From NCBI GenBank assembly GCA_011037195.1, contig JAAEAF010003062.1, positions 1-64,000 on the forward strand: a DNA stretch of 64,000 nucleotides, given 5' to 3'. Position 1 is the first letter of the stretch, and each line of letters opens with the position of its first letter. Below the pieces are notes generated by a model. It worked only from the letters and a program-made list of their open reading frames with translations, had not been told where the DNA came from and did not search any database. This DNA is from Triatoma infestans. Taxonomy: Eukaryota > Arthropoda > Insecta > Hemiptera > Reduviidae. Shown one piece after another: positions 8,790 to 63,831 of the stretch. The position numbers and the translations under genes are program-made.

Positions 8790-8829
8790 TCAGAGACATT
8801 TTCCGTGGTAGCCTGCTTCATTTTGTGGT

Positions 8830-8866
8830 CATCGACCGGTTTCGGGCGTTCGCCATCTTCAGGATG
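8830..8866 (-). ncRNA. Hammerhead-like motif, left arm of copy 1
   Basis: On the minus strand: CATC, the core CTGAAGA, a short stem GGC-GAAC-GCC, GAAA, then CCGGTC and GATG. CATC and GATG can pair as stem I. The A before CCGG and the T after it close a self-complementary stem III, and GTC is the expected cleavage triplet. One G of stem II is lost compared with the best copy. Confidence 0.6.
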
Positions 8867-9059
8867 CGTTCTTCAGACAGTGTGTCAACACAGACTCGTA
8901 CAGAGACTTAGCTTCACACTAACTTTGAGGTTAGTGTGAAGTAGTTAGTGAGACGCTAGGTTAGTTAAGTTAGTGAGACGTAAGAGATGCTATGCCTTAG
9001 AGAGTTAGTGTGAAGCTAAGTCTCTGTACGAGTCTGTGTTGTCACACTGTCTGAAAACG

Positions 9060-9097
9060 CATCCTGAAGATAGGCGAACGCCCGAAACCGGTCGATG
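9060..9097 (+). ncRNA. Hammerhead-like motif, right arm of copy 1
   Basis: Same order as its left-arm partner: CATC, CTGAAGA, a GGC-GAAC-GCC stem, GAAA, CCGGTC, GATG. All core residues of the hammerhead family are present. One or two extra bases sit between the final A of the core and stem II. Confidence 0.65.
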
Positions 9098-9169
9098 ACC
9101 ACAAAATAAAGCAGGCTACCACGGAAAATGTCTCTGATGCTTTCCAGCTCTGCGGAACCAACCACCACA

Positions 9170-10118
9170 ACAAGTAGGATTTAAGTTTGTCGGTCTGTGT
9201 GATATCCAAGAATAGCCCAGCGCAAAATTGTTCAAGTTCAAGAGATGTGGCTAGGGTGTCAACAAATCGATGACCCTGCTGCATTGTCCAGTGGAAGAAA
9301 CGAAAACCAAATGGATAATATTAACCGATTATGGATAATATTAATAATTCCGAAAATTTCTTGAAGGCGTGGAAAAAGGAGTCTTTCAAATTCTGCTTAG
9401 GATGGAAAGGAAGCTGATGGGCCGATAAAAAGAAAAGAAGATATGTTGGTTTGTTAGGTTTGGTTATCATGTGTGTGGTGGAGAATTTCCAAAGAATGGG
9501 ATAGTGAGTTGTCCTTAAGATTGAGTTATAGATAGCTGTAAGGAAGATTAGTACTTTTTTAGGTAAATGTTGGAGAATACTGGCTATTATTAGATCATAG
9601 CCAGGACTCTTTTTCTTACGAAGAAACTTGTGATAAGGATGAAACGTTTAGGAGGAAGCGAAAGCGGTAAAGTTATGTCCAATACGATTATCACGTCCAT
9701 TGTATGTTGTATGTTTTCAAAGTCAGGATGTGGGATGAAGACGGAGGAAAAATTTGTCGCTAATAAGTCAGCTTTTTCTTGATCTGATTTGGCCCAGGAG
9801 TCGTCAGGAGAACGAAGTAGGAGGGATGTAGGTTGGAATTTCAGTATTCGTTTAGCAGTAGTCCAGACTGTGTTATTGTCAGATGAGAATCCCTATTTGG
9901 AGTGGTATGTTGTATGTTATCCGTTCAGTTCGTTTTGTTGGGCAGCTTATCTTCACTTACCATATGCTCTGTGTTTGGCAATAGTAAAGTTGTCAACAGT
10001 ATCATCTAGTTGTTTTGGCGTTTTTAGAGATGTTTTTAGATTAATTTTCTGCGCAAGTAAGTCCCATACTATCGATCCATTGATTATTTCTCCCCAGCTT
10101 AATAAAAATAATTGATCA
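9170..10118 (-). pseudogene. Jockey-like LINE reverse transcriptase, 5' part
   Basis: Read on the minus strand this gives LLRSPDDSWAKSDQEKADLL, then a SPGYDLI motif (the K.PG.D block of Jockey-group reverse transcriptases) and a GHRFVDTLATSLE stretch. LFLDITQ follows, the first catalytic motif region with an expected A-F-D step just at the break. Stops and frameshifts make it non-functional. The fragment is cut at 9184/9170 by the foldback element and resumes at 8789. The 108 codon plus-strand frame at 9789 is its shadow. Confidence 0.75.
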
Positions 10119-10236
10119 CTAGTTTGGAATACTTGAATAAAAGTAATTGAATTAAATTAATTAGGATTTCTTTTCTATCTGGCGTACTTCACGAGGCAAG
10201 TGATTAGTGCAAGTTAAATTGTCACCCTATATATAT

Positions 10237-10630
10237 AGTAACGCAGCCACTGGTGCCATCTAGGAGAGAAAGCAGGTACCTCAAGTTCTCCTAGTGGCAG
10301 CTAGGAAGCGCTGGCGGCGCGCTCTAGCCCTTTCTAGAACAATCTATAACCTTCTAGAACCCTTCTCCACCAGTATAAATAGTGGGACAACAAGAGTTTG
10401 GAGAGATTCTTGTTAGAAACGAAGTGTGCATTTGTGAAAAGTGTATAGTGAACAAAGTGAACTTTTGTTGGTTTAAACTGTAAATTAATTATTATTAAGA
10501 GTTTTATTTGTAATTTATTGTGTAAAACAATAAATTGGTGTTTTTCTTATTGAAGTTTAGACTGTTTTATCTAAACGAACCCACTTAGAACTAGTTGCAG
10601 TAGCTAGTTTAGAGGGAAAAACGTTACAAT
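10237..10630 (+). mobile_element. Solo LTR, Ty3/gypsy 17.6-like
   Basis: Begins AGTAACGC and ends CGTTACAAT, giving an inverted terminal match, and is flanked by ATAT on both sides (10233-10236, 10631-10634). An AGT start with an ATAT/TATA target is the habit of the 17.6/297 group of insect Ty3/gypsy elements. Promoter and end signals are readable. A TATA box (TATAAAT) lies at 10374-10380 and a polyadenylation signal (AATAAA) at 10529-10534. No gag or pol adjoins, so it is a recombination remnant. The flanking DNA is AT repeat, which weakens the duplication evidence. Confidence 0.75.
10374..10380 (+). promoter_or_regulatory. TATA box of the solo LTR
   Basis: TATAAAT inside CCAGTATAAATAGTGGG; transcription would start about 30 bases downstream, near the ACAAGAGTTTGG stretch. 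Confidence 0.6.
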
Positions 10631-10639
10631 ATATATATA

Positions 10640-11849
10640 AAATAATCCCTGGGAAGTCACAATCTTCTGAAAGCCTTGAATCGGCCATGCTTATCCATGA
10701 TAATATATTAATTCGCTATAAACATAAAATTAAACAGATCAGTCTAAATTTGCTAATTAACATAGGGTGTATACCAATATAATACTTTACAATGTATAAT
10801 TGTCTTGTTTGTTATATGGGCACTAGGCTGTAAAAAACTTCTAGTTAAGTACATAGATAGTACGGTTTGTTGTCTTGTTAATATGTATGTTTGTGTGTAT
10901 AGGGAGTCTGTGTGTAGTTGGTAGGGCATATTGGGCAGACGGTGTTTATAGAGTGTGTAATTATGTGTAACTGTAACATCCAATTGTGGATTTATAGGGA
11001 GAAGATCTATGTCTCTGGTTCTTTTATTGTAATAACATGTCCAGTAAGATTATGGGTGGATCCCCTATGTTTACACTACGCCAGACATGTAGTTTCTGAG
11101 GCTGGCAGTCTCCTCTCCGACTAGCATCTCTCCGACATGTAATTTACCTTTTTACATCGTGAACAGTTTGACCTCTCTCCGACGTCTGCTTCTTGTTTTT
11201 ATTTCTATCTAGGCCATTGAGATACCTTCTCACTCTATTTCTCTATTCTCTCTTTCTACCTTTCCAACCTGTGTATTTATTATAGAGTAAAATGCATTTT
11301 CACATATTGTAAATCGGCTAAGGTATAGGAATACTTATTTTATTTTTATGCCCTTCAGTTATACTATTCTCACGATATTGTAGATTTCACTTTAGATCAA
11401 ATACTGTCAATGATGTAATGACAATAACCACAACAATAATAGTAATAATGTCAGGTACATAAGGCATAGCTAACGCCAGAGTTTGGCATTAAAGATATAC
11501 CACAAATTAAGTTAACTAAGCTCTTAAATTGTGTAACGGTGAAAAGAATTTTCGCGCAGAAACTAGGTAATTAATAACAACTATATACAAACTTGTACTT
11601 CCATGCTTGTCTGGCATAGTTAATCAGATTTGTGCAAGTACACACATTACTTAAAGAAACTATTCCAAATTATGCTGATACAAATTTAGATTTTATGGGA
11701 ACTTCATTTAGTTACCGTAAGTGATTCAACAGTGTGTTTAGGCCCAATTTTGCTATAGTGACTTTATCTTTAAACTGGTTTTTTAGGTCCAATTTGCTGC
11801 CGAATCTTTATCTTTAATGTGATGAATATAGAAGAGACGAGATTACAAC
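10640..11849. other. Stretch without recognised feature
   Basis: Mixed AT-rich DNA. The region 11040-11230 is less AT-rich and holds repeated CTCTCCGAC motifs, but no domain, tRNA box or known repeat was identified in it. Confidence 0.4.
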
Positions 11850-11862
11850 ATAACACCAAGAT
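11850..11862. repeat. Left target-site duplication of foldback copy 2
   Basis: ATAACACCAAGAT; the partner at 12535-12547 is ATAACACTAAGAT, one mismatch in 13. Confidence 0.8.
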
Positions 11863-11936
11863 GTTGTGGTGATTGGTTCCGCAGAGCTGGAAAGCATCAG
11901 AGACATTTTCCGTGGTAGCGTGCTTCATTTTGTGGT

Positions 11937-11974
11937 CATCGACCAGTTTCGGGCGTTCGCCCATCTTCAGGATG
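11937..11974 (-). ncRNA. Best-preserved hammerhead-like ribozyme motif
   Basis: Minus strand, 38 nt: CATC (stem I), CTGAAGA (core C3-A9), T, GGGC-GAAC-GCCC (stem II with a 4 nt loop), GAAA (core 12-15.1), CTGGTC (self-pairing stem III ending in the GUC triplet), GATG (stem I partner). Every residue required by the hammerhead core is present. The stem III is too short to close alone, which in Penelope-associated hammerheads is solved by two copies pairing. The single T before stem II departs from the textbook core. Confidence 0.7.
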
Positions 11975-12450
11975 CGTTTATCGGACAGTGTGATAACACA
12001 CACACAGAGCAAATTCGCTTTACACACTGACTGGTTTTTTTTAATTGTATTTAAAAACTAAACTCTTAAACTAGGTCAAGAGTGGTATAGTGATGGTACC
12101 TGAGTGGGAAAAAGGAACATGTGTTTGGATTGTTAAAGGGGTAAATTTTCTTAAAATGGAAACAACATTTGAGGGTCTAATTTTTAAACTCTGTTGTTGT
12201 AGAGAGATTCACTTTACAATTAACTAACCAAAATAAATTTAAAATTAAATTAAATAACGATTTAAATTAACATAATTTAAAATTAAGCGATTAAAATAGT
12301 AAAAATGAAAATAATTAACATAATCAAAGCAAATAAACTACTTAACCTAGTTTAAGAGTTTAATGTTTAAGTACAATTAAAAAAGACCAGTCAGTGTGTG
12401 AAGTGAATTTGCTCTGTGCAAATCTGTGTTATCACACTATCTGACAAACG

Positions 12451-12487
12451 GAACCTGAAGACGGGCGAACGCCCGAAACCGGTCGAT
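12451..12487 (+). ncRNA. Hammerhead-like motif, right arm of copy 2
   Basis: Core CTGAAGA, stem GGGC-GAAC-GCCC, GAAA and CCGGTC are intact. The 5' half of stem I has changed from CATC to GAAC and would pair poorly with GATG. Confidence 0.6.
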
Positions 12488-12544
12488 GACTACAAAATGA
12501 AGCAGGCTATCATTGACTGGAAATGATGTCTCTGATAACACTAA

Positions 12545-12898
12545 GATACTTGTAGGCAATTGTTATTTCGATTTGACACCATTAAATTTCCATTTTACCT
12601 CCAATCTACCAAAAATTTCCAATCTACCTCCTCTTCTAAAAAGTACAAATTTTAATTTTTCCATAACATTTAAATGATATTGTTGGTAATATTTTTCGAG
12701 AATATTAATGTTCCGCTGTAAACCGATAGGTTAATCAGAGATAATCACCAAGTCGTCGGCATATAATAGGGAGTTGATCTTCAAGTTACCACCAAAAATA
12801 CCGCCCTCAAATGCAGAAGGAATATTATCGACAAATAGAGTGAAGAGGAGAGGGCTCAGAAGACAACCTTGCCTCACTCCACCACTATCCACAGAAAA
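12545..12898 (-). pseudogene. LINE reverse-transcriptase fragment with YADD
   Basis: Read on the minus strand, 12894-12734 gives GVRQGCLLSPLLFTLFVDN and then LLYADDLVIIS, the two reverse-transcriptase catalytic blocks in correct order and spacing, uninterrupted. Further along, an F.RRGGRL motif and a NGV segment match the stretch after YADD in the family of the 17-19 kb element. The rest of the protein is missing. It abuts the foldback copy 2 target duplication, so the retroposon landed at or next to it. Confidence 0.8.
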
Positions 12899-12899
12899 A

Positions 12900-14809
12900 A
12901 ATCAGAAACTCCATCTGTCCCTCACACCGGTGAGCGTGAATGAGAATAAACATATTATAGCATGTTATATCATAAAAATGAATATCGAAACATAAAAACC
13001 ATTCAAAAAAGTTTGCCTTGCTGTTCATCATTTTTGTTTGTTTAAAACTGGGCATTTTTACAACAAATTTAGTTTTTGACAGTATAATGCGAATATATTA
13101 AAAAGTTGCTTTTAGAGAAGCCCAAGGACAATGCTCCTTTTTATCCCAACAACGAAAATCTAGGAAGACGCATCCTCAGTTGATAGCGTTTGACCGAAAA
13201 CTTTGCGCTGGAAAAAATGTAATATACGTAAATTGCTAAATTTTGAGATGCGATTTTTCGGGTATGAGCGTTGCGCTCGGGGGCCGCCCGAATGGTGTGT
13301 TAATTAACAAAATTTTCGTTTTAGAATTATGCCGTTCTCTCACCCCATTATTCACACTCCCTCACTCTTTACAAATAGTAAATACTAAATTATTTCTAAA
13401 GTAATCTACGGCTCTTAAAATGATATAAAAATAAAAACATTTCCTGAAATAAATATATAAAAGATAAATACTATTAATTTAGAATACAAGGAGAACCAGC
13501 AAATGTTTTAACAATTGATGAAGTAAAAACAGAGAAAAAAGAAGAGAAGAATACAGATTTACTGTATTTTAATTATTCTAAAGAAATGGTGATTACTGGT
13601 GCAGTCATTATAGTTAAATACCTCTATGATTCCTTACGATAGGGCCAAGCAAGTTTCTCATAGTTTACAATATTCCGGGAATTATCACGATCGTTCAAGC
13701 GATCAATGAGTTCGAACTGCGGTAAACACTGATCGACCAAAATAGGAACTGCATATTTCTAATAGAACTGAGCAGTTAGCCATGAAATAGCAGATAACTT
13801 CTTTAGCTCGGCTATTACACAATGAACAAAATCCCCCCACTACCATTTAGGGCTAAGAAACAAATTTCCAAATTTACAATTTGTCAATTTTATAATCGTA
13901 TTAACGGCAGTATGAGAAAATCGTTTAACTATTTCACATCCACGTTTTACGCATTAAACACTTCCTATAATTACATATAGGTCCAACCATCTATCGCTCA
14001 TATATACGAATAATTTCAAATACACCACATGGAACGAATCTAAAATAGAAGTTAAATACTAACTATTAATTTTTTAATTGATAGAAGATACAAGAGCCTG
14101 GTAAAAGGTATTGTTCTGAATATATTAGAACAAGGGTAGCTCTATAGATCTTATTGTACATCGTTTAAGTGGGCCGGATGTGTTTTATTTGGTCAGGATT
14201 AACACTGTGTATTGAAGACATGTTGTTGGCATCGTTCTGATTCTTCTTCGTCTTGTTTTATTTTTATTTTTTGTTTGTTTGTTCGTTACATCCATAAAAA
14301 ATATAATATAATAAAACAATCCTGCAGCATACGTGGAAGTATGCTTCAAATAATTCATTATTACATGTTAAAACCTTGGGCATAATTTCTTCAAGGGCGG
14401 TTTTTTGTCATGATTATGTCTAACTGAGATAGATAAACTGATACATTAAGCTACCAAAAAACGAAATTAAAAAGAATTGATTTTATGATTTACTTACTTC
14501 TTTGTAATTATAATTTTAGATTTTAATATATTCTGGTATAATGAGATATAAAAATGATACCAAAGGCTTTAAATGATTCGAAATTTTAATGGAATGTATT
14601 TTAAGAATAATGTTGAAAATAGTGAATGGTTGGTGATGGGTTAATTGATAAACACACGAACTGGCTATTTACCCATAATTTATATTTTAGGCTTTTCTAA
14701 TTAAAAAGAGAAGAGCGTATGGAGGGGTAGAGTGACCGAGCAAAGAGTACGAATCGCTTGAAGACTGATTTGACTAGAAAGCTAGTAAGGCCAGCTTGAA
14801 ATTCTGGTG
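12900..14809. other. Stretch without recognised feature
   Basis: AT-rich, with one small GC-rich patch at 13255-13300 containing GAGCGTTGCGCTC, a short hairpin, and CGGGGGCCGCCCG. No gene or repeat family was identified. Confidence 0.4.
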
Positions 14810-14816
14810 AACGAAA

Positions 14817-15076
14817 CATCCGAGACATTTTCCGTGATATCCTGCTTCTTTTTGTGATCATTGAGCGGTTTTGGGCGTTCGCCCATCATGAGGATGTTTG
14901 TTGATACACTGCAGTGTATCAACTGTACTTGCTCTGTGCAAGTGTATGTTATTACACTGTTTGACAAAAACATCCTGATGACGGGCGAACGCCCGTAACC
15001 AGTCGATGACCACGAAAAGAAGCAGGCTATCATGGAAAATGTCTCTGATACTTTGCAGCTCTGCGGAACCAACCAC
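14817..15076 (+). mobile_element. Hammerhead foldback retroposon, copy 3 (compact)
   Basis: Left arm from CGAGACATTTTCCGTGAT, a nearly loopless centre (TGATACACTGCAGTGTATCA, a perfect palindrome), right arm to ATGTCTCTGAT, then the tail GCAGCTCTGCGGAACCAACC. AACGAAA at 14810-14816 and 15077-15083 is the likely target duplication. The left-arm ribozyme has lost the core G5 and G12. The right-arm one (14971-15007) keeps CTGATGA and the GGGC-GAAC-GCCC stem but has GTAA for GAAA. Confidence 0.85.
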
Positions 15077-15120
15077 AACGAAAACTTTAGGTCTTCGAGT
15101 TGAGATTGCGACAGGGTTTG

Positions 15121-15285
15121 CTATAAAACGACATTTTGGCCCATGTTGCCACATGCTTTTTCAGGGTAGTGTGGAGTTAATCAACTCCACACCAAAAGCC
15201 AATCGGCTTATATTGCTTTTTGCTTGGCAAGTCAACACTACCCTGGCAAATATGGCCGAAACAACGTTACATCGTTTTATAAAAA
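15121..15285. repeat. Imperfect palindromic element
   Basis: Nested inverted repeats. The outer arms are TATAAAACGAC and TCGTTTTATA, then GGCCCATGTTGCC against GGCAAATATGGCC, GGGTAGTGT against ACACTACCC, and an inner GTGTGGAGTTAATCAACTCC with its partner. Either a MITE-like insertion or another foldback retroposon; the right arm contains GGCCGAAAC, as in the hammerhead-bearing families. Confidence 0.55.
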
Positions 15286-15289
15286 ACTC

Positions 15290-15500
15290 TTCGCTCAATC
15301 CATGTCCTACCAAACTCTATTGAATTTCGTCCATCCATTTTCTCCTGGGTCTTCCTCTTTCCTTCTTCCTTCTACTTCCCATTCCAAAATTTCCTTTAGT
15401 AGCCTTCCATCTGTCTTCATTTTCACATGCCCAAACCAACGTAACCTCTGCCTTTCTACTATTTCCAGAAGGTTTTCCTTCACGTCCATCATACTTATTA
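15290..15500 (-). pseudogene. LINE C-terminal fragment
   Basis: The minus-strand frame 15492-15307 reads RQRLRWFGHVK, then an EWEVEGRRK stretch. This is the R.LRW.GHV...G.R...RP pattern at the C-terminus of RTE-type and related reverse transcriptases. Only about 60 codons remain and no catalytic domain is present. A TTTA-rich run adjoins on the right. Confidence 0.65.
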
Positions 15501-15655
15501 TTTATTTTATTTATTTATTTATTGCTTATAAGTTTAACACTTGTAGCAATGAGTTGCCCTCATTATACTTTCAATATACAATTACAATATCAGCATTATA
15601 ATATAGTGTGTATATACATAATATTTCAAATAAGAAAATAATAATAATAAAAATT

Positions 15656-16320
15656 ATACCCCGTAGGGGGAAGTGGACTAGCCACTTCTTCAGGGATCTA
15701 GGTGTCCCTGCGGATTTCCCAGCCTAACAACACTACATATACACTCATACTGACACCCTTGACAGTACACACTACACATAGGACCTGCAGAGGTAGTTGA
15801 TGTGTGCAACTACTTGGGTACAGCGCACCCACAGGTAAACTTGAGCTCCCCACCACACACACTCACTCACACCTGAACACTCGACACTTTACAGACGACC
15901 ACACTCATTGCACGAACAAGGACACGCACTCGTTGAGAGCTCGGAGTATAAATACCTCTCCCTCGTGCTTGCCGGCACGAGGCTTTGGGGCTAGGGTGGA
16001 AAAGGGGAACCTGGGCATTGAGGGAGACGACAACCTGCGGGCGTCCGATCCCAACACATGTCTTTGGCCTCGGCTTCACCTGAGAGCCCTACCTGGGGAA
16101 TAGCCCGACTCCAGGAAGGCTAGGGAATTCCGCCTCAGGCGGGTTCCTAGGGTTAGGAAGGGGGCCGCGGGGACACGGGTCAATGCCTCGGTATTGGAAC
16201 GCTGTCTTCCGTGGCACCGGACTATGTCGAAGTGCGATGGCCCACCCGGATAGTAACCGGGTCCAGTTGAGCGTCCGTGGAGGCGGGACCACGTGCTTCG
16301 ATGAATCCCTATTGATTATT
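15656..16320 (+). promoter_or_regulatory. GC-rich 5' region of a LINE with internal promoter
   Basis: This block is far richer in GC than its surroundings. It begins near CCCCGTAGGGGGAAGTGG, carries a TATA box at 15947-15954 (GAGTATAAATACC) and runs into the ORF1 start at 16321. It contains several hairpins, for example CTCGTGCTTGCCGGCACGAG at 15961-15980. On position and composition it is the 5' untranslated region of the LINE whose ORF1 follows. The minus-strand sequence around 15660-15700 (CTGAAGAAGTGG...) faintly resembles a decayed hammerhead. Confidence 0.5.
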
Positions 16321-16894
16321 ATGAATAATCAAAATAACATTCCTGGGCCTAGCCCAACTTTTTCTACCTTACACACAACCTATCCCCACCCTTTACCAAA
16401 CAATCCCTTCCCGACATCCTATAACCTTCCCATAACAACTTCCTCTACCACGTCATCAATTCCCCAACCTGCTGAAATAAATGGTAATCGATAAGGCTTG
16501 AAAATGGACAACACATCTGGAACATCATCAACTGGTATGCAGGTTACTCTGCAACCATATATCCCCGCCGAGGAAGAAAGCTAGGGGCGGCAACTGGAAG
16601 GAAAGAGAGGTAAGTTCAGAATTGTTTTTAGACTTAGAAAGAGAAAATCGGGGTCGTTTTTTTGTAATAAAAAAGAAAGAGGGAACATTCTCCAATGAAT
16701 GTTCATTCAAACTTCATAAATTTCTTAAAAGTACTTTGGGCAAAACGAAAAGTATCAGGAAGCTCAATGATGGTTCTATTTGCATTGAAGCAGATAAACG
16801 TAGCCAAATCGGTGCCATCATGAATCTACAGAAATACATGGATGCTGAATTGGAAGCCAGTCCCAACAAAGGTGTTGTGCAAGAAGCCAACTAG
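16321..16894 (+). pseudogene. LINE ORF1 (gag-like) relic
   Basis: Starts ATG at 16321 with a Pro/Ser/Thr-rich leader (MNNQNNIPGPSP), stopped after about 58 codons and frameshifted. It resumes at 16622 with FFVIKKKEGTFSN, LHKFLKSTLG, SIRKLNDGS and EADKRSQIGAIMNLQK, ending SPNKGVVQEAN. The pattern of FVI..., a K.L..G..L.EV stretch and SPNK...GVV is that of the N-terminal gag-like domain in Jockey-, I- and LOA-type ORF1 proteins, which bind element RNA. The zinc knuckles expected downstream are missing; the next kilobase belongs to an opposite-strand LINE. Confidence 0.65.
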
Positions 16895-17129
16895 GTTAGC
16901 AGCATTTGTCATCCCAGATCGAGCGGCGTTAGTAAGAGAAAGTAAATAATGATTTGGGGGCGCTAATAATCACAGTAGTTGATGCGCAAAAAAAAAAAAC
17001 TATTCTGATAAAATAAATGAACTTCAGCAGATATTAAAATAAAGACAAATAAAATAAAAGTGGAAGATAATAAATTAACCAATAGATATTAAAACAAACA
17101 TGTATCTGACTTAATCTAGTACTAAAGAG

Positions 17130-19330
17130 TTTCGGAGCTTTAAACTATTTACTGTATACAGATAAATATTTTTTAATTTTGAATTGGAGTCGATATTCAG
17201 TAAATTCTCCAATTGAACCTGAGGAGGTAGTATAGGATTAATATAATTTTGTAAAAATTTTGTCCTAAAGGATTTAATATATGACATGATGACAGAAAAT
17301 GTGATATATTATCCTTGTCAAGAAAACATAATGGGCAACAATTTTCAGGGGAAAATTTATAATTTATACCTTTAGGTAATATTCTGGGGTGTTTTTTGAA
17401 ATTAGTCTCATCTGGCTGGCGACTCTGATCATGTCAATATGTATTTTATATCGATATAGCCTTCACCCAACCCAAGAGAACTGATATTCCTGAAGTGTAA
17501 GTTAAAACTGGATTGTACAGCTAGTTCGATATCTTTGCTCACTAAATGGTTATTAAATTTCTTCAGGATGTCACCATACTTAAGTGAGACCAATTCTCCA
17601 TCCTGGAGGTCCCAAACATTCTGTCCCCCAATTACAAATAACATATCTCTTAATCTAGATACCCAATTAAACGGGATATTCTTATTATTAATATTCTTTA
17701 CTAAAGAATCATAACAGATACGCGGCAATCTTTCAGCAGACATGGAGAGAATTTTAATCCATAGATTGACAGCCCGCCTAAAAATTCTAGATATTAGATG
17801 TACAGAACGTGTCTCCAATCTGACTTAATAATCTGGTATATTTTGAGGCAAACCTAAAAGAATCTTCGGAATTTAAGCTGTACCCTTTCCACGATGTCCG
17901 CATAGCACAGTCCCCAGACTTCCGAAGAATATAATAATATACTAGTTATAAGAGAGTTAAATAAATACATTTTAGTTTCCCAAGCATATGACTTTGATCT
18001 GGACAGTAGAGACATTATTGAGGGGATAGCTGCTGAGCTTTTAGACTAAGTTATTAGCGGCGGAGAGAAACCTGGCATAGCAGGTAAATGGGACTCCAAG
18101 ATATGAGAAAGAATGTACCGTATCAATTTATAACTAAAAGACTGAAAAACATTTTTCGAGGGTCTTCCTTTATGACATGGCATGACAAATGTTTTTGTTG
18201 TGTTAATTTCAAGAGAATTATTATCACAATATGATTTAAGTATTTTAAATTTGAAATTGACATCACTACCGGAATAACCAGAAATAGCTAAGTCATCTGC
18301 GTATAAAAGCATTAGCAATTCTTTATACTGACACCTCTGGCACCTTGTTCATTGACGTACCCTACAATGTCCGCAATATATAGATTAAATAATAGAGGGC
18401 TCATTTTTTCCCCTTGTAATACCCCTTTGTTTATATCTATTAATCCCAGATCATTTGTATAATCGTCAATCACTAATGTTGCTTTGTTATATAAATCTTT
18501 CAAGACTCGAATCATTTTAGGACTTATACCTAAGATTATGCCATAGTCTTAAGTGTGGAACCTGTCAAAAGCACGCTTAAAATCGACAAAAATAACAAAA
18601 ATTTGCCTTTTTTTTCTCCTTTAGGTTTATATTTAATGTACTGGACAAAACGAATATTGCATCAACACAGCCCCGACCCACCCTAAACCCATTCTGTTCC
18701 TCCGGAATTAACAATCTCTCTTCTACCCAACACATTAGCCTGCCACATATTATTTGAGTGAATAATTTCACTATGTTATTAATAAGCGCTATTCCTCGAT
18801 AATTTAATGGATCACTATGATCGCCTTTTTTATATATCATTTTCATTTTTACGCGGGTCCAAGTAGATGGTATAATTTCGTTGATCCAAACTTCATTAAA
18901 TAAATTGAGCAGGTAATGCTCCCAAGCAGGGGTCAAACACTTAAATGCCTCATAAGGCTACTTATACTTTCCTGAAGTTCATTCAAAGTTATATCATCCT
19001 GGCCAGGATAGTATGTACCAACAAAAGTTAAGTCGAGCCTAATTTCAGTCGGGAAGTTATTTTGGAAGAACTCATGCCACTGAGTTAAACAGATGAGGTT
19101 TTCTTTGAATGAAGAACCCCGAAATTTTCCGACAACTCCCCAGAATTCTTTTGGATTGTTTATATTACGAAAAGAGTTTTTTATCTCCTCTTGGTATGCT
19201 ATTTTACAGGTTTTAATAAGCGACTTATGGTTTTTCTTTGAATTTAAATACTCTGTCAAATGTGATAAAGTTTTTGATTTTTTAAAACTTTTATAAAGGA
19301 AATTTAAAGATTTTTTTGACTGTTTACATT
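17130..19330 (-). pseudogene. Non-LTR retrotransposon ORF2 relic (reverse transcriptase)
   Basis: The longest LINE remnant. In minus-strand order it begins with an endonuclease-RT linker (19259-18933, PKEFWGVVGKFRG). The reverse-transcriptase N-terminal blocks follow at 18936-18577 (MKMIYKKGDHSDPLNYRGIA, EEQNGFRVGRGCVDA). A +1-type frameshift leads into VDFKRAFDRF, then GVLQGEKMSPLLFNLYIADI (18515-18312) and LLYADDLAISGYSG (18318-18046), a C-terminal segment (17818-17429) and a final C-x2-C...H-x4-C cluster near 17330. All catalytic motifs are present but split among at least five frames by stops and frameshifts, so it is dead. The endonuclease domain is absent. The K.FVMPCHKGRPSKN motif after YADD is shared with the fragments at 12545 and 52787. 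Confidence 0.85.
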
Positions 19331-19540
19331 AATAAGTATACCACGGGTTATACAAATCGGGTCTTTATGGGCAAAACAAAATAAATAATATTGATGTTTT
19401 TGGTGTTCGTTACGACTGCTGGATTCAATGTTGTAAATGTTGTAAAATTGCTGGAGTAAAAGTGTTACAACACTTGGTGATGGTGTGGCACAGGTTAAAC
19501 TAGATTAATTACTACTGGAATTCTAACTGAAAATTTTTCT

Positions 19541-22140: not shown

Positions 22141-22199
22141 TATATAAATCTTCGCGTCAACCTAGGGCTTATAAAAAAAATTAATACTAATAAAGATGG

Positions 22200-39450: not shown

Positions 39451-39709
39451 ATCAGTGATATTTTCCGTGGTTGCCTGGGGTCATCGACCGGTTTTGGGTC
39501 TTCACAATTTTTCATAAACATTTCAAATATATCAAGAGTGTGAAAAACTGATTTCTCGCACTGCAATTCTATGATACCATAGTGTCTAGAAAAATATATT
39601 GAAGATGGACGAACGCCCAAAACTCGTCGACCAGTTTTGATCACTATTAATGAAGTAAAGAAAAAAAATAATTGCTGTGTTCCAGCTCTGAGGACACAAG
39701 CCACAACAA
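39451..39709 (+). mobile_element. Hammerhead foldback retroposon, copy 4 (old)
   Basis: ATCAGTGATATTTTCCGTGG at the left and a tail TTCCAGCTCTGAGGACACAA and CCACAACAA at the right. TAACATCATAG (39440-39450) and TAACGTCACAG (39710-39720) match at 9 of 11 positions and are the likely target duplication. The arms are strongly diverged, GGACGAACGCCCAAAAC being all that remains of the right ribozyme. Confidence 0.75.
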
Positions 39710-50549: not shown

Positions 50550-50609
50550 AAATGAAATTTGCCACTTTCTGAGAATAAATTTATTAATGGGAAAATAGTC
50601 TGTTTGTTA

Positions 50610-50642
<33 letters not shown>

Positions 50643-52786: not shown

Positions 52787-53156
52787 AGGTGTCCTGCAGG
52801 GGGAGGTTTTAAGCCCGATTTGGTTTTCTTTATATATCTGTAATATTATAATGTTTACTAAAGAGAGGGCTTGCCCACGCATTAGTATTATTTCTTCAAG
52901 GGATTTTTCCAATGATTTTATTTACTGACGACAATGTTTTATTATCGTCCACCCGCATTGATGCCCAACTACAGTTGAAGACTCTCAAAGAGTACTATGG
53001 CGTCCATAGCCTCTCGGTCAATACTGACAAAAAATTTGTTGTACCTTTCCAAAGATGCTCCACAGTTGGTAAATTAAAAAATCTTTATTACAATAATCAG
53101 AAAATAGAGTATACACACTCTATTGTTTACTTGGGCGGTTACTCTTTCGCATAGGT
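52787..53156 (+). pseudogene. LINE reverse-transcriptase fragment (same family as 17130-19330)
   Basis: VLQGEVLSPIWFSLYICNII, then LFTDDNVLLSS (YADD position changed to FTDD), LKTLKEYYGVHSLSVNTDK and NNQKIEYTHSIVYLG match the catalytic core and following region of the element at 17130-19330. One frameshift near 52925. The N- and C-terminal parts are missing. Confidence 0.75.
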
Positions 53157-53389
53157 ACCAGTAAGTTTTGTAAAGCTTGTGACGCTTCAATAGCTAAATT
53201 TAATTAGTAAATTCTTTCCGAAAATTACTTCATAGTAAAAAAGGTAACATTTCAGGAATGTGACATTTCTGAGAAAAATTAGTGTTTTAATAAAAAATAT
53301 AAATTTTTGTGTTGAACATTGAATCAGAAATATTACTAAATATTTAGTCCCGCTATTGTAAAAAAAAAAAGTGGCATTACAGAGGGGAA
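53157..53389. other. Short AT-rich stretch
   Basis: Nothing recognised. Confidence 0.4.
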
Positions 53390-53880
53390 GCCTAACGTTT
53401 TAGTTCCTCGGAACCGCCAAAAATATTTTGTCCGGGAAAATATTAAAAATAAAACTTCGACCTTTAATTTGTATAAATAAGTGTGTATAGCAAAATTAGG
53501 AAAATCTTTAGAACCATTTTGAGAAGATATTTCTCTTTTAAACTACGTATACATGTAATATAATTCTGCACTGAAAAAAAAATTGAGAAACCATTGAGAA
53601 ACAATTGAGAATAAAATATGAAAAAAAGAAACCATTCAGTAATATTGCACCTCCGGTGGTTTACAGAATTTGACCGAAACGTTGTCACATCCCCCGATAG
53701 TTTCTATAAAGCAAAGAAATTTATACTTCTTGCGTGCTTTCGTTTTTTGGAATATTTTGAAATATTTTTTCCCTACTCATCTGACTAGAAAGTCAGATTT
53801 TCAAAAGAAAATCAATTTCCAAAATTCGAACGCGATCGCAATATTCACTCTTACGAAAGGAAATGAAAGTGAAAATTCAT
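53390..53880 (-). repeat. TAAGAG element, variant B, decayed
   Basis: TTAGTTCCTCGGAACCGCC, GCACCTCCGGTGGTTTACAG and GAAAATCAATTTCC follow variant B in minus orientation, with a decayed hairpin (CACTCTTACGAAAGG) at the right. Confidence 0.65.
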
Positions 53881-56250: not shown

Positions 56251-56286
<36 letters not shown>

Positions 56287-57059
56287 TATGATGACGGACG
56301 TAATGTCAGATCCTAAAAAATTTTTTTTTCTGCATTTTTCAGGAAAAAGTTCAACGTCAAGGTTCAGATCTAAACGTTGAAAAATCTTTGCGAATCTTCG
56401 TGCATTTAAGGAGAGAAAGAGAAAAAGGACGATAAAATTTATAATTCACTTAAACACCTAGGCGATTTAATAAAACACAAAATAAATAAGCACGAGAACG
56501 TAAGTGTAACATCGTACAAATCATACAGTACATCTAGATCTCTCTATAAACGCAAACAGGACACGGGATAGTTGTGTTAAAGACCGCGGACCCTACAGGT
56601 GGCTACACAGCTCCTCCGTGCGGATATTGTAGTGTGTCGGTCGCGCTCTCTTGCATTCTTTAATAACAAACTCTTCCCAACTCTACCGCAAAACCTCTTC
56701 TCTAGAAGTGACTTTCTTGGTCAAATTGTACTGTTACACTGTATTCTTTGGTATTACTATCTATTAAATATATCTTTTTTTTACTTTCTTTTTTTGGTGA
56801 AGATTTACTAACATTAAAAAATATGACAACATATGGAAACCACAAATATAAACAGTCAATAAAAGCATAAATTAAAAAAAAAAAAAAACTACTTATATTT
56901 ATTAGTTTCTATTTATGCAGTACCACCTTCTTCTTATGTTTGACCATATAAGTATTAGTAACTTTTAAGGAAGCTAGTAAATAGCACGTTCTGTAAATGT
57001 AATTCATCATTATCTATTAGTTATAATAGTTAGTTTACTTACCAATTATCATAAATATT
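53881..57059. other. Long AT-rich stretch, mostly unexplained
   Basis: Contains a faint TAAGAG trace (54240-54480), a partial hammerhead-like end on the minus strand at 55785-55810 (GGCCGAAACGTCGG without the CTGANGA half), (GA)n at 56255-56281, and a GC-richer block at 56575-56660. No gene recognised. Confidence 0.4.
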
Positions 57060-57372
57060 GGAAGTTGTGTACGGGTATATCGAGAAAATAGCAACAACCT
57101 GAAAAAAAGAAGAAAAAAAAAAAAAAAGAAAGTCATTCCGTAAAGTAACAATTCCGGATTTACGGATTTGAACCTTCAAACCGGATTTGGTGTGATCGAA
57201 AAGGAAATATCTAGTTTTTTCAAGTTTCCTTTATTTTCCGTTTTCGTGACATTTTACTTTATATTCACAGATATCATATTTTTTAGAAGCATTGATAGAA
57301 TTCCAAATTTGAAGACAATCAGTTAACCGGAAGTTAACGACTTCTTTGCAGAGTAGGTTTTTGAGTTTTTTT
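57060..57372. repeat. TAAGAG element pieces, variant B
   Basis: 57060-57235 reads in minus orientation (AACAATTCCGGATTTACGG). 57290-57372 reads in plus orientation (CAGTTAACCGGAAGTTAACG). Confidence 0.5.
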
Positions 57373-57373
57373 T

Positions 57374-58070
57374 TACTTTCACTCACTTCTAGTAAGAGGA
57401 AGTATTTATAGGTAATCGTACCAAATTTTCGATATCGAGTTTTCATCGGAAATATCCGTTTTGAGGTCCCGTGAGTTTAAGAAAGTGGTTTTTAGAAAGT
57501 GGTATGCGTATATATATACAGCACAGCTCACAAATGAAAAATCGTAGAAAGTTCAAACTTGATATTCCGTTTAGGTATAATCATGGGATCTGACTGTAGG
57601 TTATCTGTTAAAATTCCTCAACCGGAAATACTACCTTTACTGAATTTTTTTTTTTTACATTTTGCGATTTTCTCAAAAATGGCTCCAACGATTTTCTTCA
57701 AACTTGGTATATCAACTAAACATACAAACAGCTATAACTTTTATTTGAAACATTTCTCTGGGAAATTTATTTAATAGTTTGACGGGAGAGGTGGAGTTAT
57801 GTTTTCCTCTAAAGTGCTATTTCAGTTTATTACACAATGTTATCATCTAAATAATATTAATTATAATTAAATATGTTGTTGAAATTCCGTGTTTCTAGAA
57901 AATTAGTATACCGGTTTTTACTGAAGTTTTTTCCATTTTTTGTGTGATTTTCTCCATAAAAAACGCCGATGAATTTCATTAAATTTTGTATCCTAACTAT
58001 AAAGTTTCAATTACAACTTTTGAAAACTGAAGTAAGAGAAAGTTGTGTGACTGTTTCACATCATATTTTT
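57374..58070 (+). repeat. TAAGAG element, complete short form
   Basis: ACTTTCACTCACTTCTAGTA at the left, TTCATCGGAAATATCCG, a nearly absent microsatellite, CATGGGATCTGACTGTAGG, AACCGGAAATAC, one module, and the right end GAAGTAAGAGAAAGTTGTG with TTTCACATCATATTTT. Confidence 0.9.
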
Positions 58071-58459
58071 GTTAATTTAAAAAACAACATTCTAAACAAA
58101 TTATAACAAAAAAAAAACTTTGAAATATAGATCACAAAGAATTTGCAGGGTGTAAAACTACGATATAATAACTATGACATTCTGTGCAAAAGGTTTCCAT
58201 TATGCGGTCAAGTTGGGCAGGAAAAAAAAAAAGATTCTGGGTTATACTTTAAACATGTGCTGGCGCACGTCTTCCTTGTTAAAAACTAATGTCAGTATTA
58301 TAATAATGTATTATAATAATATATGAACTTCCTTGAGAACGCGACAACGAAAGGAATCAGGCCAATATTGTTGGGCGAAATGTGTTTACGATCAGTTCTA
58401 CTGATATTCAATAAATTAAAATCAGGAAGAACCAGCATACCGTAAAATGAAGCTTTTTT

Positions 58460-58685
58460 TCTTTTTTAATTTTCCTTACTACTGCAAGACGAAATTGGGA
58501 TCTGATCAAGTTTTCGAAATTGATTTTTCAACAGAAAGAAAATGTTTTTTAGCGAATTGTTCGAAAATTATCATTCAAATAAATCTGTTGAAAATTTGTC
58601 ATTCATAACTGCAGTAATTCATAAATTTATAAATTGCAGTGCAGTAAGAGAATACAGTGGCAGTGTTTCACACTAATTTTATTTT
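58460..58685 (+). repeat. TAAGAG element, deletion derivative (about 0.2 kb)
   Basis: Left end TTTTCCTTACTACTGCAAGA, TTTTTTAGCGAATTG, then directly the right end GCAGTAAGAGAATACAGTGG and GTTTCACACTAATTTT. All internal modules are lost, as in a MITE-like derivative. Confidence 0.65.
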
Positions 58686-59447
58686 TCTAATCAGAGCACG
58701 AATTTATTTTTAAATTTCTTATTGGTTTAAAGATGGGTTTATTTTTGCTGTTCAACAAACTTAATAAAAATTGATAAAAAAAGAGAATAAGAAATCAAAG
58801 AAATTATCTCAGAGAGTTAATTAATATCATTATTAACATCATCTTTTTCACTTAGTTCCCAATTAATATGTTATAAAAGTATCGCTGAGGATGAATTGCT
58901 ATTTGTCTTAAGAGAATTTAATTAATTATATTTTTAAAATTCAACCTCCTTAATATAGCGAGTCACTTTTTTGTTTGACTATATAATACTTTTTCTAAAT
59001 CATTTGTTTAACTATCTCAATATAGATAAATAAAGGAAACATAACACATAGCTCTTTTACAAACTTCCAGATTACAAATTCTATTTTCATGTCTCACATT
59101 GAGTGTATTCCATTCAATTAGTGGGGAGGGGGCTATGTATTGACAAGTTATCTCTTAACACTTGTCATACATGTACATAGCTGCATTTTACTAGTTTTGT
59201 ATTATTACAGGCCATTCCTAGTTTCTAGGAAGGTATTATAGAAAGAAAACACATGTTCACTGCCATTCATTCATTATGTTGACATTTTCCAGACAATGTT
59301 TGTAGCAATAAATGATTATTTATTGCTACTCTGTTGAATGAATATAAGTAAAAATATTTCTATGTAAGCAATGTTTAACCATGTTTTAAATCTTGGTGTT
59401 TTATGTTTTTTACTGTTAAATGAAACTTGAACAAAAAAAATAAATAA
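58686..59447. other. AT-rich stretch without recognised feature
   Basis: Nothing recognised. Confidence 0.4.
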
Positions 59448-59530
59448 ATCTGGTGTGAAACACTCACACGACTTTCTCTTACTACGAAATGGCAAATTTT
59501 CTTCACACTTAACAATTATTCTTATTAGTA
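59448..59530 (-). repeat. TAAGAG element left-end fragment
   Basis: AAATCTGGTGTGAAACACTC and GACTTTCTCTTACTACG, then broken off at the foldback element. Confidence 0.75.
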
Positions 59531-59706
59531 TCAGAGATATTTTTCGTGATAGCATGCTTTTTTGTGGTCATCAACTGGTTTTGGGTGTTCGCCCGTCATC
59601 AGGATGTTTTTTATCAAAACAGTGTGATAACTTAGACTTGCACAGAGCAACTTTAGTTGATACATTCAATGTAATTATAATGGGTTTGAGAAGGTGAGAA
59701 CTTGAG

Positions 59707-60300
59707 TTAGAGAGATAAATGAACTAGAAGCAAAGTTGAACACTGTATAATAGTAAGGTAATCCAAACGCCTCGACTTTACATTAAAATATATTAAATGG
59801 TAAGTGACAGGTAAAGAGAAAGGTTGTTGACGCGTTGTGACTGCTGTAGAACCCTGCTGCAAGACTGTCGGGTTTTTAGACTCTCTTCTTCTTTTCCTTT
59901 CTGGATCTATGCCTGGCAGGTCCTTGGCCGCCTTTAGCAGACTGTCCCAACCATCTCTGTCTGCGGCTTTCCTTTTCCACTGTCTGACGCCCATCTTCAT
60001 CAGATCTGCCTCCACATCCTGCAGCCAACGTAACCTTGGCCGGCCTCTAGGTCTTCTACCTCCTGGGTGCCCTTCATAGACCTTTCGAGGGGTTCTTTCT
60101 ACACTCATCCTGTGGAGGTGTCCCAACCAGCGCAACCTTCCCACTTTTATCGCAGCCACAAGCGTCTCTATTCCATAGAGCTGATACAATTCAGCGTTTT
60201 TACGTGGACGGAACACTCCGCCCTCAACTACTGGGCCATAAATACAGCGCAAAACTTTCCTCTCCCAGCAGTTCAATCTCTGCTCATCTGCTGCACTCAT
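59707..60300 (-). CDS. RTE-like LINE C-terminal fragment, open for 197 codons
   Basis: An uninterrupted frame, the longest in the window. It reads LNCWERKVLRCIYGPVVEGG, LRWLGHLHRMSVERTPRKVY, GRRPRGRPRLRWLQDVEADL and MGVRQWKRKAADRDGWDSLL. This is the C-terminal region of RTE-type reverse transcriptases (W-E-R-K-x-L-R..G-P, G-R-x-R-G-R-P-x-x-R-W, R-x-W-R..A-x-D-R). The catalytic domain is missing, so it cannot work alone. The first Met is arbitrary. About 60 residues after KAAKDLPGIDP are probably untranslated tail read through. The preserved frame suggests a recent insertion. It lies within the loop of a foldback element. Confidence 0.75.
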   Translation of the reverse strand: MSAADEQRLNCWERKVLRCIYGPVVEGGVFRPRKNAELYQLYGIETLVAAIKVGRLRWLGHLHRMSVERTPRKVYEGHPGGRRPRGRPRLRWLQDVEADLMKMGVRQWKRKAADRDGWDSLLKAAKDLPGIDPERKRRRESKNPTVLQQGSTAVTTRQQPFSLPVTYHLIYFNVKSRRLDYLTIIQCSTLLLVHLSL

Positions 60301-60359
60301 AATGTAAGCCTACAACAATATACTTTGATTAAAGATATAATGGTATGAGAGTTTCGAGA

Positions 60360-60420
60360 AACTTGTTACGCGTTTGTTGCGTAGAACCCTCTGCAAGACT
60401 GTCGGTAGACTCTCCCGCAG
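60360..60420 (-). repeat. Partial duplicate of the LINE 3' region
   Basis: TTGCGTAGAACCCTCTGCAA and GACTGTCGG repeat, in the same orientation, the LINE tail at 59835-59875 (GTAGAACCCTGCTGCAAGAC). Confidence 0.7.
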
Positions 60421-60946
60421 ATGTATTTAAACAGTTTCTCCCACTCTAGTCTGGTCTAAGCTAGAGAGTGATCTTGTCAAATTTTATGACTCTCTCTATC
60501 TACTATGGATCCCTTTCTTCGGATCCTATTGCATAATGTTATGTTGATACACTCAGTAACAACTAATTCTGCTCTATGCAAGTCTATGTTATCAAACTGT
60601 GTTGACAAAATATCCGGATGATGGGCGAACGCCCAAAACCGGTCGATGACCACAAAAAAAAAGCACGCTATCACAGAAAATATCTCTAATAGTAACATAA
60701 TGGTGTTGATTATTGATTTTAAATTGTACGTCGAATGAGTTAACTCTGCTGGTTTCTTTTTAACATAACTCTCTTCCACAGACTGACAGACTTTGGAAGT
60801 AACGAAGGCTTCTTGAATTAGTAGGGTTTATTTATTGTTTGCCACTTCATATTAGCACAAAATAATAGAAACTTCAATTTTTACTACAATAATTGGGTAA
60901 ACAACTGTAAAAAATAAATACAACAAAATAACAGCAAACTTTTAAA

Positions 60947-61217
60947 TTACATTGTTGTTGTGGGTGGGTCCGTCAGAGCTGGAAAGCATCAGAGATATTT
61001 TCCGTGATAGCCTGCTTGTTTTCATGGTCATCGATCGGTTTCGCGCGTTCGCCCATCATCAAGATGTGATAACATTTATCACAGAGTGTATCAACTAAAT
61101 ATACTGTGTGCAAGTGTAATATGTTATCACACGGGTTTTAACAAAACATCCTTATGAACGCCCGAAATCGGTCGATGACCACGAAAAGAAGCAGTCTATC
61201 CCGGAAAATATATCTGA
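60947..61217 (-). mobile_element. Hammerhead foldback retroposon, copy 6
   Basis: Tail on the left (TTGTTGTTGTGGGTGGGTCC, AGAGCTGGAAAGC), then ATCAGAGATATTTTCCGTGA, and a right arm ending GGAAAATATATCTGA. TTTAAA at 60941-60946 and 61218-61223 may be the duplication but is low in complexity. Ribozyme motifs (61029-61065 minus; 61148-61181 plus) are damaged: the left has TTGATGA, the right lacks part of stem II. Confidence 0.8.
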
Positions 61218-61223
61218 TTTAAA

Positions 61224-63630
61224 GCGAATATTTTTGCCACCATTATCAACAAATTAATATATATATACAATTAAAATTACCAGTGTTTTGTGGAAAGAAA
61301 TTTACTTTAACGCTCTGTTAAATAAAAACTTTTATATTCAAAATAACTATAGAATTAAATAGTTGTTTAAGGAACACACGATTAATATAATTATTAACAA
61401 AATTACATATATTTTTCTCTCTTTAACTGAATTTATCGTGCCTTTGTTTTTTTTTGTTTTGTTTTTATAGCGCTTACTTTAAAAAATAAACACATTATTA
61501 AGAAAGATAAAACAATAAGTTTATATAGGTTTTTGTGATCAATTCGTGACTGATTTCTAGTTTCCGGTCAATTTTTTTCTTGAATTAAAACAACTAGTGT
61601 TTATTTTATTTTTTTTAATAGCATATATATATATTTCTTTTGGTCCAATTTCTATAAGAATAAAGTGAGGGCTGTTTAAGAGAATTCATGGTACGTTTAA
61701 TAATATAATTATATAGATAGGAGAGGCTTACCTACTACCGCCAGCAAGGGTGGTCCCTTTTGTATGTTCGTATACCTTTCTTTCTTAGTACTCGTAGTTA
61801 ATGTATGAAGGTACTATTCTACATAAGCATAGAAGATACATGTTTAAAAACTATGGTAACTTTCTTAAAAGTGTTTTAGTAGATGAAACAAAGTCATGTT
61901 GTATAGTTCATGATATGTAAATAAGTTCATGTCCTACAGGCTTGATGTTTAATTATTATAGCAGTAGGGTGGGACCACCCAGATTTATAGATGTCTTCAT
62001 ATAATATGTGTATCTAACTTCTTCTAACCTACATTCACCTCTGTCTTGTAAGCTGTTATATACCTTCTTTTTTTCTTGAAAAAAAAACAAAAAAAACTAA
62101 TAATATGATTTCGTTTCTTTAGAAAGAAAGAAAGAAAGAAGAAACTGAAAGAAAGAAAAAAAGTTCCATCTGTATTATAAATACTTAATTTTGACTTCTA
62201 ACTAAGATGTTATTATCATATATTCTTCTTTCTTATCTTTCAAGATAAATTATATATAAACAAGAATTTATAAATATTATATTATATATATATTTAAGTA
62301 AGGTGCTTTTTATTCATAATCTCTATTTAATGTTAATCTATTTATATTAAATTTATACAGAGAACAGTGTAGTCTGGTTTAAATATATTAATTTAATAGA
62401 GCATTGCAGGATTACTGAGGGGGATTTAAAGAGATTTAAAATTGGTCTTAAACTAAGAATTTTTATTACAACCTAATTATTTATCTATTTTTAAATAAAT
62501 TATAGGTAAGTTCATTTATCCTATAGAGAAATTCAAGCTTAATCAGTCCATAGGTGGGTAATAAACTGGCCAGTTTCCAGGCACACTTCTTTTTTTATTA
62601 TACAGTAATAAAAATTACATTATCTTATTACCGTATCATAAAATTTTTAAATTAAAAAAAAAAAAATAAATAAATTAGTTTCTTAATTGCAATATTAAAC
62701 TCAATTTGAACTTCTTCCTTACTTTACTATTGAATTTTACTGGACTTTTTAATATTTATTGGCACAAGTCTGGCCGCCAAGGATCAGTCAATAAATGAAG
62801 AGAGAAATAAAGTTTAAATCAAAATATATCTACATAAGAATAATGATGCTATCAGAGCCCCTGTATTCCTGTTATCGGCTGTGTAACCACTTTAAGAGCA
62901 TTACATAACCTCTATGTATTGCTCACTCAAAAGACGTCAAGTCTTCAAGAAATTTGCACTTTAAAAGAATAAAGTTGAGTGATTTGATTTCTGAGGGAAT
63001 AATAAAAAAAAAAACATCTGGTATTCATTCACCAAGCAATATGTGGTGTAAGTTGCATGAATCCTGAAAATTTGTACAAGTGTGGTCCTGAAAATGCTAT
63101 ATGCACAGTTCGAGGTTGTAAGGCTTGCAAACCCACGCGCAGTATTTTCTTTCAGCCAAATCAGGAACCAAACCAAGGAAGAAAAAAGAAAACCGTTATC
63201 AAAGAATAATAAATAATTAAAATACTTTAATTAATAAAAAAAAAAATTCTGATAATCAAATTTAATTAATTAAGCGGGAGAAACAATGAAAAATCAATGT
63301 AAAAAAAATTGTTGCTAGTTACTTCCTCAATATATTCTTTGTTTAATTAAATTTTTGAAGTACTTAAATTCTGCTTCAAAACTTTACTTAACTTGACATC
63401 AACTAAACTTCGCATTGAATTACATTTATCTGCATTTTTAGGCACTTAAGAAGTTTAGCAATTTTACTTTTCTTTTTTTTTTCTTTTTAGATGTGCGCTT
63501 TGATTATAAAAATTATTCTTCTTTCTCAATATTTTAAATTTGAATTTTAAGAAAATGAATAAGAGTTGGTGTTTGTAGGAAGTCTCGTTTCTTTTCTGCC
63601 CACCTCCACCGAATAAGTGTTAAACCAAAT
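61224..63630. other. AT-rich stretch without recognised gene
   Basis: Contains a (GAAA)n tract at 62119-62160 and many A/T runs. No domain, SINE head or TAAGAG copy was recognised, making this the longest repeat-poor part of the window. Confidence 0.4.
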
Positions 63631-63638
63631 TCTTTTCC

Positions 63639-63831
63639 GCATCAGAGATATTTTCCATGATAGTCTGCTTGATTTGAGTGTATCTATTACTACATATACT
63701 GAGAGAAGTGTCATTACACTGCTTAACAAGACATCCTGATGATATGCAAACATAGACTGAAAAGTGGTCAATGACCACGAAATGAAGCAGCCTATCACGG
63801 AAAATATGTCTGATGTGAACCAAACAACAAC
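63639..63831 (+). mobile_element. Hammerhead foldback retroposon, copy 7 (short)
   Basis: ATCAGAGATATTTTCCATGA at the left; CACGGAAAATATGTCTGATG and a shortened tail AACCAAACAACAA at the right. TCTTTTCC at 63631-63638 and 63832-63839 is the target duplication. The left arm has lost its ribozyme segment. The right arm keeps CATC and CTGATGA but stem II is scrambled. Confidence 0.85.

Follow-up and report, generated by a model that had tools for sequence, protein, structure and literature searches.

The 64,000-nucleotide stretch of Triatoma infestans DNA analysed here (contig JAAEAF010003062.1 of assembly GCA_011037195.1, positions 1 to 64,000 of the forward strand; the window) contains seven palindromic foldback copies of a short repeat, first described in a sequence-only reading as foldback retroposons with a hammerhead-like ribozyme block in each arm. 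That reading brought in Penelope-like elements by analogy. They were indeed relevant, but as the parent, because the host genome contains a full Penelope-like element whose ends form the foldback arms. The palindromes are very probably gene-less copies of this element, consisting of pseudo-long terminal repeats (pLTRs) placed head to head, mostly with a tail on one side, and likely inserted in trans by the protein of full-length copies. The copies in the window are thus non-autonomous derivatives.

The parent, locus L090 (G000:C132), is a full Penelope-like element with an 823-amino-acid (aa) frame open from its ATG. The frame starts with MGERPKPVDDHKMKQATTENVSDAFQLCGTNHHN, and its first 34 codons correspond to the outer foldback arm plus the tail. 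The arms of copy 1 in the window, 97 % alike, showed 97-98 % identity to the L090 element end. Upstream of the frame an inverted pLTR with a tail stands head to head, and direct pLTRs were also seen, giving the order inverted pLTR, pLTR, gene, pLTR. In other loci direct pLTRs were found in L094 and L079 and an inverted pLTR in L086. The L090 protein shares 27 % identity with that of L079 over 718 aa (4e-65); the latter matches RVT_1 and GIY-YIG in Pfam, and through this homology full copies with the foldback ends are connected to a protein with reverse transcriptase (RT) and GIY-YIG domains; taken from codon 2, the L090 protein itself had no Pfam match at E 0.01. It has 127 homologues in the protein set and, among the 120 listed, those named to species belong to insects; a simple pattern for a PKPV-like start found none within the first 60 residues of these 120 proteins. 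The window copies carry no gene: when the L079 protein and the RT fragment of L060 served as queries in a translated search, other loci were matched and the window was not. By eye, the DNA to the right of L090 (L092) resembles a fragment of a Tc1/mariner transposase gene.

Foldback copies do form a family. The exact 16-base arm end occurs 15,379 + 15,579 = 30,958 times in the 941-Mb host genome, the ends of full elements being counted in, against 1 occurrence of a reversed-pattern control, and 989 exact copies of the 37-base core were counted (control 0). The sample studied comprised 67 loci and the window; L010, L011 and L028 were removed as duplicates, and L001-L008, covered by longer fetches, were excluded. 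Loci L009-L038 were picked by an exact core match and L039-L078 by an exact arm end, so that in both sets one exact arm was a condition of selection. There were 61 head-to-head pairs and 35 partnerless arms in the sample, with aligned arm lengths in the pairs of 8-280 (median 104); the 40 loci fetched by arm end held 29 pairs and 22 single arms, a pair being present in 26 of them. Tandem direct repeats of the retrozyme kind, with a hammerhead in each monomer, were not the arrangement seen, as only 7 same-strand neighbours within 1.3 kb accompanied the 61 inverted pairs.

The term retroposon was borne out by the tail and the target duplications. Exactly one arm carried the tail in 54 of the 61 pairs, none in 4 and both in 0, and 3 were uncertain. 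The tail ends in an AC-rich run, beyond which the flanks differ among copies, the first 12 bases being 78 % A+T. An exact target duplication of at least 7 bp was found in 34 of the 54 one-tailed pairs, in comparison to 1.9 % of 10,593 shuffled pairings, and the duplications vary in length with no single length fixed. An AC-rich one-sided tail of 30-40 bp together with target duplications of variable length is among the features of Penelope-like elements.

For the spread of the foldbacks, the protein of full-length Penelope copies would insert them in trans, and reverse transcription would run to the far arm from a start within the AC-rich tail, a kind of start site also reported for Poseidon of Anolis (PMC11167929). 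The genome-wide loop count, which covers the loop of the L018 unit, gave 7 exact occurrences and 0 with 1-3 mismatches; L080 and L081 share the same flanks and are one site, so two of the seven coincide. L018, L080, L082 and L083 show 0-3 differences from L018 in about 347 letters and, by eye, a separate target duplication flanks each of these four. The recurrence of one identical loop in different places, four of which have duplications of their own, indicates that foldbacks are copied as units. Inner junctions vary among the copies, which argues that new foldbacks also arise. The two arms of one element are more alike (87.0 %) than arms of different elements (81.6 %; 48 pairs, 0 of 2000 permutations).

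Three other origins were considered. Foldback or miniature inverted-repeat (MITE) DNA transposons mobilised by a transposase would account for the long inverted arms and the high copy number, but symmetrical ends and a duplication of fixed length are the hallmark of foldback DNA transposons, whereas here the tail is one-sided, the duplications are variable and the ends are common to a reverse-transcriptase element, which leaves this origin hardly credible. Recombination between direct pLTRs could drop the gene, as in the formation of solo LTRs, and leave an inverted pLTR plus one pLTR. L090 has the required order and the product would retain the target duplication; however, in many foldbacks both pLTRs are missing the greater part of their long 5' region, and a single loop is found at several sites with separate duplications and hardly any differences, so this route is regarded as improbable. 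A better chance, though still below even, is given to foldbacks made anew at insertion, when both ends of a staggered cut would prime reverse transcription, one on the tail and the other on the arm end, and the two cDNAs would join head to head. In Anolis both strands are cut and extended by the enzyme, the tail corresponding to the interval from one RT start site to the other (PMC11167929). The varied inner junctions, the lack of any two-tailed pair among the 61 and the switched tail side of L085 agree with such events, but the identical loop at several sites does not, and the within-element likeness of the arms better fits a shared template or unit copying.

The reading preferred here, that of gene-less Penelope-like copies inserted in trans and copied as units, has several observations against it. 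Single arms make up 22 of the 51 arm groups in the arm-end set of 40 loci, and 20 of the 54 one-tailed pairs have no exact 7-bp duplication. By eye, L090 shows no visible target duplication and has a tail at both ends. The frame of the aligned arms lacks a codon-position signature. Two relatives of the L018 unit are left unexplained by plain unit copying, L084 with 10 differences from it and L085 with an L018-type loop and the tail on the opposite arm. L085 looks as if the tail side were set at insertion or the source had two tails. Coding constraint on the arm frame in the foldbacks was considered and rejected in part, as third codon positions were the least variable in 123 aligned arms; the frame is genuine in the full element, but nothing indicates that the foldbacks preserve it as a gene.

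The block within the arms has the hammerhead order, as first proposed. The consensus holds all the required core letters (CUGANGA, stem II, GAAA, H17 and stems I and III); an extra nucleotide follows A9, and stem III is self-complementary, with 3 bp. Minimal hammerheads with a short stem III cleave with a second RNA. Since stem III is so short and self-complementary, cleavage in this family would need a second RNA too, a need described for minimal hammerheads in PMC7761336. The motif overlaps the start codon of L090: A9 supplies the A of the ATG, the extra nucleotide its T, and stem II, with its first G, the last letter. The predicted cut therefore falls after base 24 of the frame. A loose motif pattern applied to all loci gave 26 matches, its loop rule missing most intact foldback arms. 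Six motif matches outside the foldbacks resemble Penelope hammerheads (L009, L026, L079, L086 and twice L089), and the extra nucleotide after A9 is present in all six, as in the foldbacks. N7 is the only bimodal site within the block, whether the whole set of 123 arms or the 59 not fetched by core are considered. No match to the hammerhead-type core was found in viral contigs.

Breakpoints of the arms were examined with respect to the predicted cleavage bond. Among 30 late-starting arms in the loci, which include L037 (cut by the locus end) and L075 (seemingly an internal deletion), 6 begin at model positions 80-83, position 80 being the first base past the predicted cut. Genome-wide, a breakpoint was defined as a 24-base anchor at the given position with all four preceding bases unlike the arm. 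In raw counts, not normalised by anchor totals and with tail and plain arms pooled, there were 205 breakpoints at position 80, 61 at position 77 (three bases upstream of the bond) and 93 at position 87 (seven bases downstream), and 0 in the reversed-pattern control of each. By reasoning rather than computation, a random prefix would fit each of the three patterns with similar odds, and none of them is easily upset by single-base insertions or deletions; treated as equal opportunities, position 80 differs strongly from 87 and 77 (7.7e-11 and 2.2e-19, respectively). The prefixes at position 80 are diverse, the commonest occurring, by eye, about 5 times among 99 readable ones, so the excess does not come from a single amplified copy. 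Position 83 (140 breakpoints) was rejected as a comparison, having a shorter anchor and being, by reasoning, open to single-base deletions. The excess at the bond is possibly the footprint of cleavage in vivo.

The predicted folds suggest how the motif would behave in a foldback transcript. Whole units are predicted to form hairpins of -278.3 (copy 1) and -296.3 kcal/mol (L082, with hairpin arms of about 140 bases), with z below -31, and in these folds the block is paired with the opposite arm. The sequence-only reading expected one ribozyme on each strand; this follows from the geometry, but each is predicted to pair with its own complement within the same RNA. A transcript of either strand would end in one sense ribozyme and carry the complement in its 5' arm, which would bury the ribozyme in the hairpin. 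The opposite arm is thus predicted to lock up, and so likely to silence, the hammerhead-type motif. Because a cut would separate the tail from the remaining template, a buried ribozyme would leave that template intact. Unmasked RNA, from single arms or from arms of different RNAs that had dimerised, would sometimes be cut and leave arms starting at the cleavage bond. It is tempting, but on balance rather unlikely, that the foldback is a ribozyme-masking device that outgrew its parent, and that unmasked templates were cut in vivo to leave hundreds of bond-starting arms as a germ-line fossil record of the hammerhead.

Masking and cleavage in vivo have to be set against two other explanations and against results that weigh on the other side. 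No match to the Rfam hammerhead models was found in the window at E up to 10. Covariation in stems I and II, which the earlier proposal called for, found no support in 59 arms, with 4 two-sided versus 32 broken cells in stem II and 3 versus 17 in stem I, the counts coming from mutually alike copies. In the same 59 arms (the window and L039-L078, none fetched by core) the catalytic letters are intact in 33, against a control mean of 36.1, and thus without excess conservation; an apparent excess in a larger set (74 of 104 arms intact) was rejected, as it arose because 30 loci had been fetched by an exact core match, and it vanished in the 59. In Anolis, hammerhead mutants left insertion in vitro unchanged (PMC11167929). 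The block might be a relic, or a piece of coding sequence (PKPV) that happens to have the hammerhead order, and not work as a ribozyme; part of it lies within the reading frame of the full element, and its cores decay as other arm positions do. This is doubtful, although it keeps a fair part of the probability: the consensus has every required core letter, the sole subfamily-variable site inside the block is the free one, N7, the extra nucleotide is common to the six non-foldback matches, some of them in the pLTRs of a separate Penelope family, and breakpoints are commoner at the cleavage bond. The bond excess itself has another explanation that comes close to an even chance, namely a stop or snap-back of the reverse transcriptase at the hairpin GGUC-GAU-GACC. 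As this local hairpin spans the bond, an RT stop is an equal rival to cleavage; it is present in the predicted minimum-energy fold of the right block of copy 1 and absent when the two typed consensus cores were folded.

In the window, an arm scan returned the seven head-to-head pairs with shared ends that had been described. The 16-mer ATCAGAGAYATTTTCC with at most 3 mismatches has 13 matches, in comparison to 1.73 expected; 12 of these are arm ends and the remaining one, at 12734, is a stray. The claim of a block in every arm went too far: the arm at 63641 has none, and the block is degenerate in both arms at 39451 and in the right arms at 61101 and 63694. With copy 7 excluded, the catalytic letters are intact and ungapped in 3 of the 12 aligned arms; copy 2 accounts for two of them and the right arm of copy 1 for the third. 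Most window arms do have the block, though usually in broken form. Passed over at first were the one-sided 33-bp tail of five of the seven copies (in copy 1 GCTTTCCAGCTCTGCGGAACCAACCACCACAAC, about 33 bp, past one arm only), the start codon within the block, the extra nucleotide between A9 and stem II, and the target duplication ACAAGTAGGATTTAA flanking copy 1. The coordinates are given in Table 1.

Table 1. Foldback copies and associated features in the window
Feature	Coordinates	Strand	Remarks
Foldback copy 1	8789..9171	+	plain arm 8789-8903 (-), loop, arm 9024-9138 (+), tail 9139-9171
Left target duplication of copy 1, ACAAGTAGGATTTAA	8775..8789	.	left copy
Right target duplication of copy 1, ACAAGTAGGATTTAA	9170..9184	.	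right copy
Hammerhead-type block, copy 1 right arm	9060..9097	+	catalytic letters intact; predicted cut GGTC/GATG
Hammerhead-type block, copy 1 left arm	8830..8866	-	catalytic letters present; 1-nt deletion in stem II
Foldback copy 2	11863..12536	-	left tail 11863-11895; arms 11896-12011 (-) and 12414-12536 (+)
Hammerhead-type block, copy 2 left arm	11937..11974	-	catalytic letters intact
Hammerhead-type block, copy 2 right arm	12451..12488	+	catalytic letters intact; stem I strand altered
Foldback copy 3	14813..15079	+	right-hand tail; two broken cores
Foldback copy 4	39451..39709	+	degenerate; right-hand tail; two broken cores
Foldback copy 5	59527..60690	.	no tail seen; 0.9-kb interior; two broken cores
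Foldback copy 6	60954..61218	-	left-hand tail; two broken cores
Foldback copy 7	63639..63815	.	short arms; left without block, right block degenerate

By eye, a shortened tail may follow copy 7. The interior of copy 5 holds a 200-aa stop-to-stop frame (59707-60309, minus strand), with no Pfam match, which is reminiscent of the C-terminal part of non-LTR retrotransposon proteins; it may be captured DNA or a nested insertion. An RT fragment lies at 18580-18957 on the minus strand (RVT_1, 22.3 bits, under the curated cut-off). To the right of copy 3 an imperfect inverted repeat (15120-15290) was seen by eye, possibly an unrelated MITE, and Rfam matches to MIR821 falling on the copy 3 hairpin were dismissed as chance.

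A second Penelope family of this genome (L079 and L086-L089) was found by a Pfam GIY-YIG search in which 150 of 1157 candidates were scored. L079 (G000:C1030) has an 809-aa stop-to-stop frame and direct pLTRs of 434 bp with a hammerhead motif in each, the downstream one showing C to G directly before GAAAC. In L086 (G000:C13330) the inverted pLTR stands head to head. In L060, the end of a sibling family adjoins an RT fragment, and a search with this fragment gave at least 150 matches (all 150 scored, of 634 candidates) with frames of up to 841 aa. L091, one of the loci matched by it, was rejected as the parent, having no arm match. Ends of sibling Penelopes were noted in L087 (608-706, plus strand), L060 (4145-4237, minus), L062 (881-998, plus) and L019 (426-524, minus). 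The end in L087 reads MDKNPKPV...ATTDQIPDVIQHCGSIH; the family has a related tail, GCATTGCGGATCCATCCAC, and fuller relatives of the sibling family may be the RT-fragment matches in C3970 and C3704.

Hammerheads in Penelope elements are established (PMC6155905, PMC7761336, PMC11167929). The sequence-only reading knew of no described foldback family of this build, which holds in part. No gene-less foldback Penelope copied as a unit at such number was found in searches of the open-access literature; head-to-head inverted Penelope pLTRs, on the other hand, are described in PMC3846280, and short non-autonomous Penelopes are mentioned in PMC6685494. A close likeness is to the Pen families of Adineta vaga (PMC3846280), with head-to-head pLTRs, an optional 31-bp tail on one of them, target duplications of 8-10 bp, a pLTR spanning the first codons, palindromic junctions and unrelated DNA caught between solo pLTRs. 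In the cases described for those families a gene is usually enclosed, whereas the foldbacks are gene-less and their arm end is found roughly 31,000 times in this genome. Poseidon of Anolis, PAc (PMC11167929), shares a minimal hammerhead at the start of the open reading frame, with the cut 26 bp past the start codon, an AC-rich RT start and a tail of 30-40 bp, but forms tandem copies with the gene and no foldback is described for it. The Penelopes of Heliconius are likewise short, non-autonomous and numerous (PMC6685494). Metazoan retrozymes have type I hammerheads in non-autonomous non-LTR elements too; they make circular RNAs, with 150-300 bp between hammerheads, in contrast to the head-to-head inverted and tailed foldbacks (PMC7761336).

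In PMC7761336 the in vivo role of minimal Penelope hammerheads is called still a mystery, and no use of breakpoints as a record of cleavage was found in searches of the open-access literature. The roughly 31,000 arm ends allow template ends to be read from insertion breakpoints, and such a reading would make the use of a ribozyme in natural retrotransposition countable. The foldbacks of T. infestans also pose a clear test of whether sequestering its ribozyme helps a retroelement.

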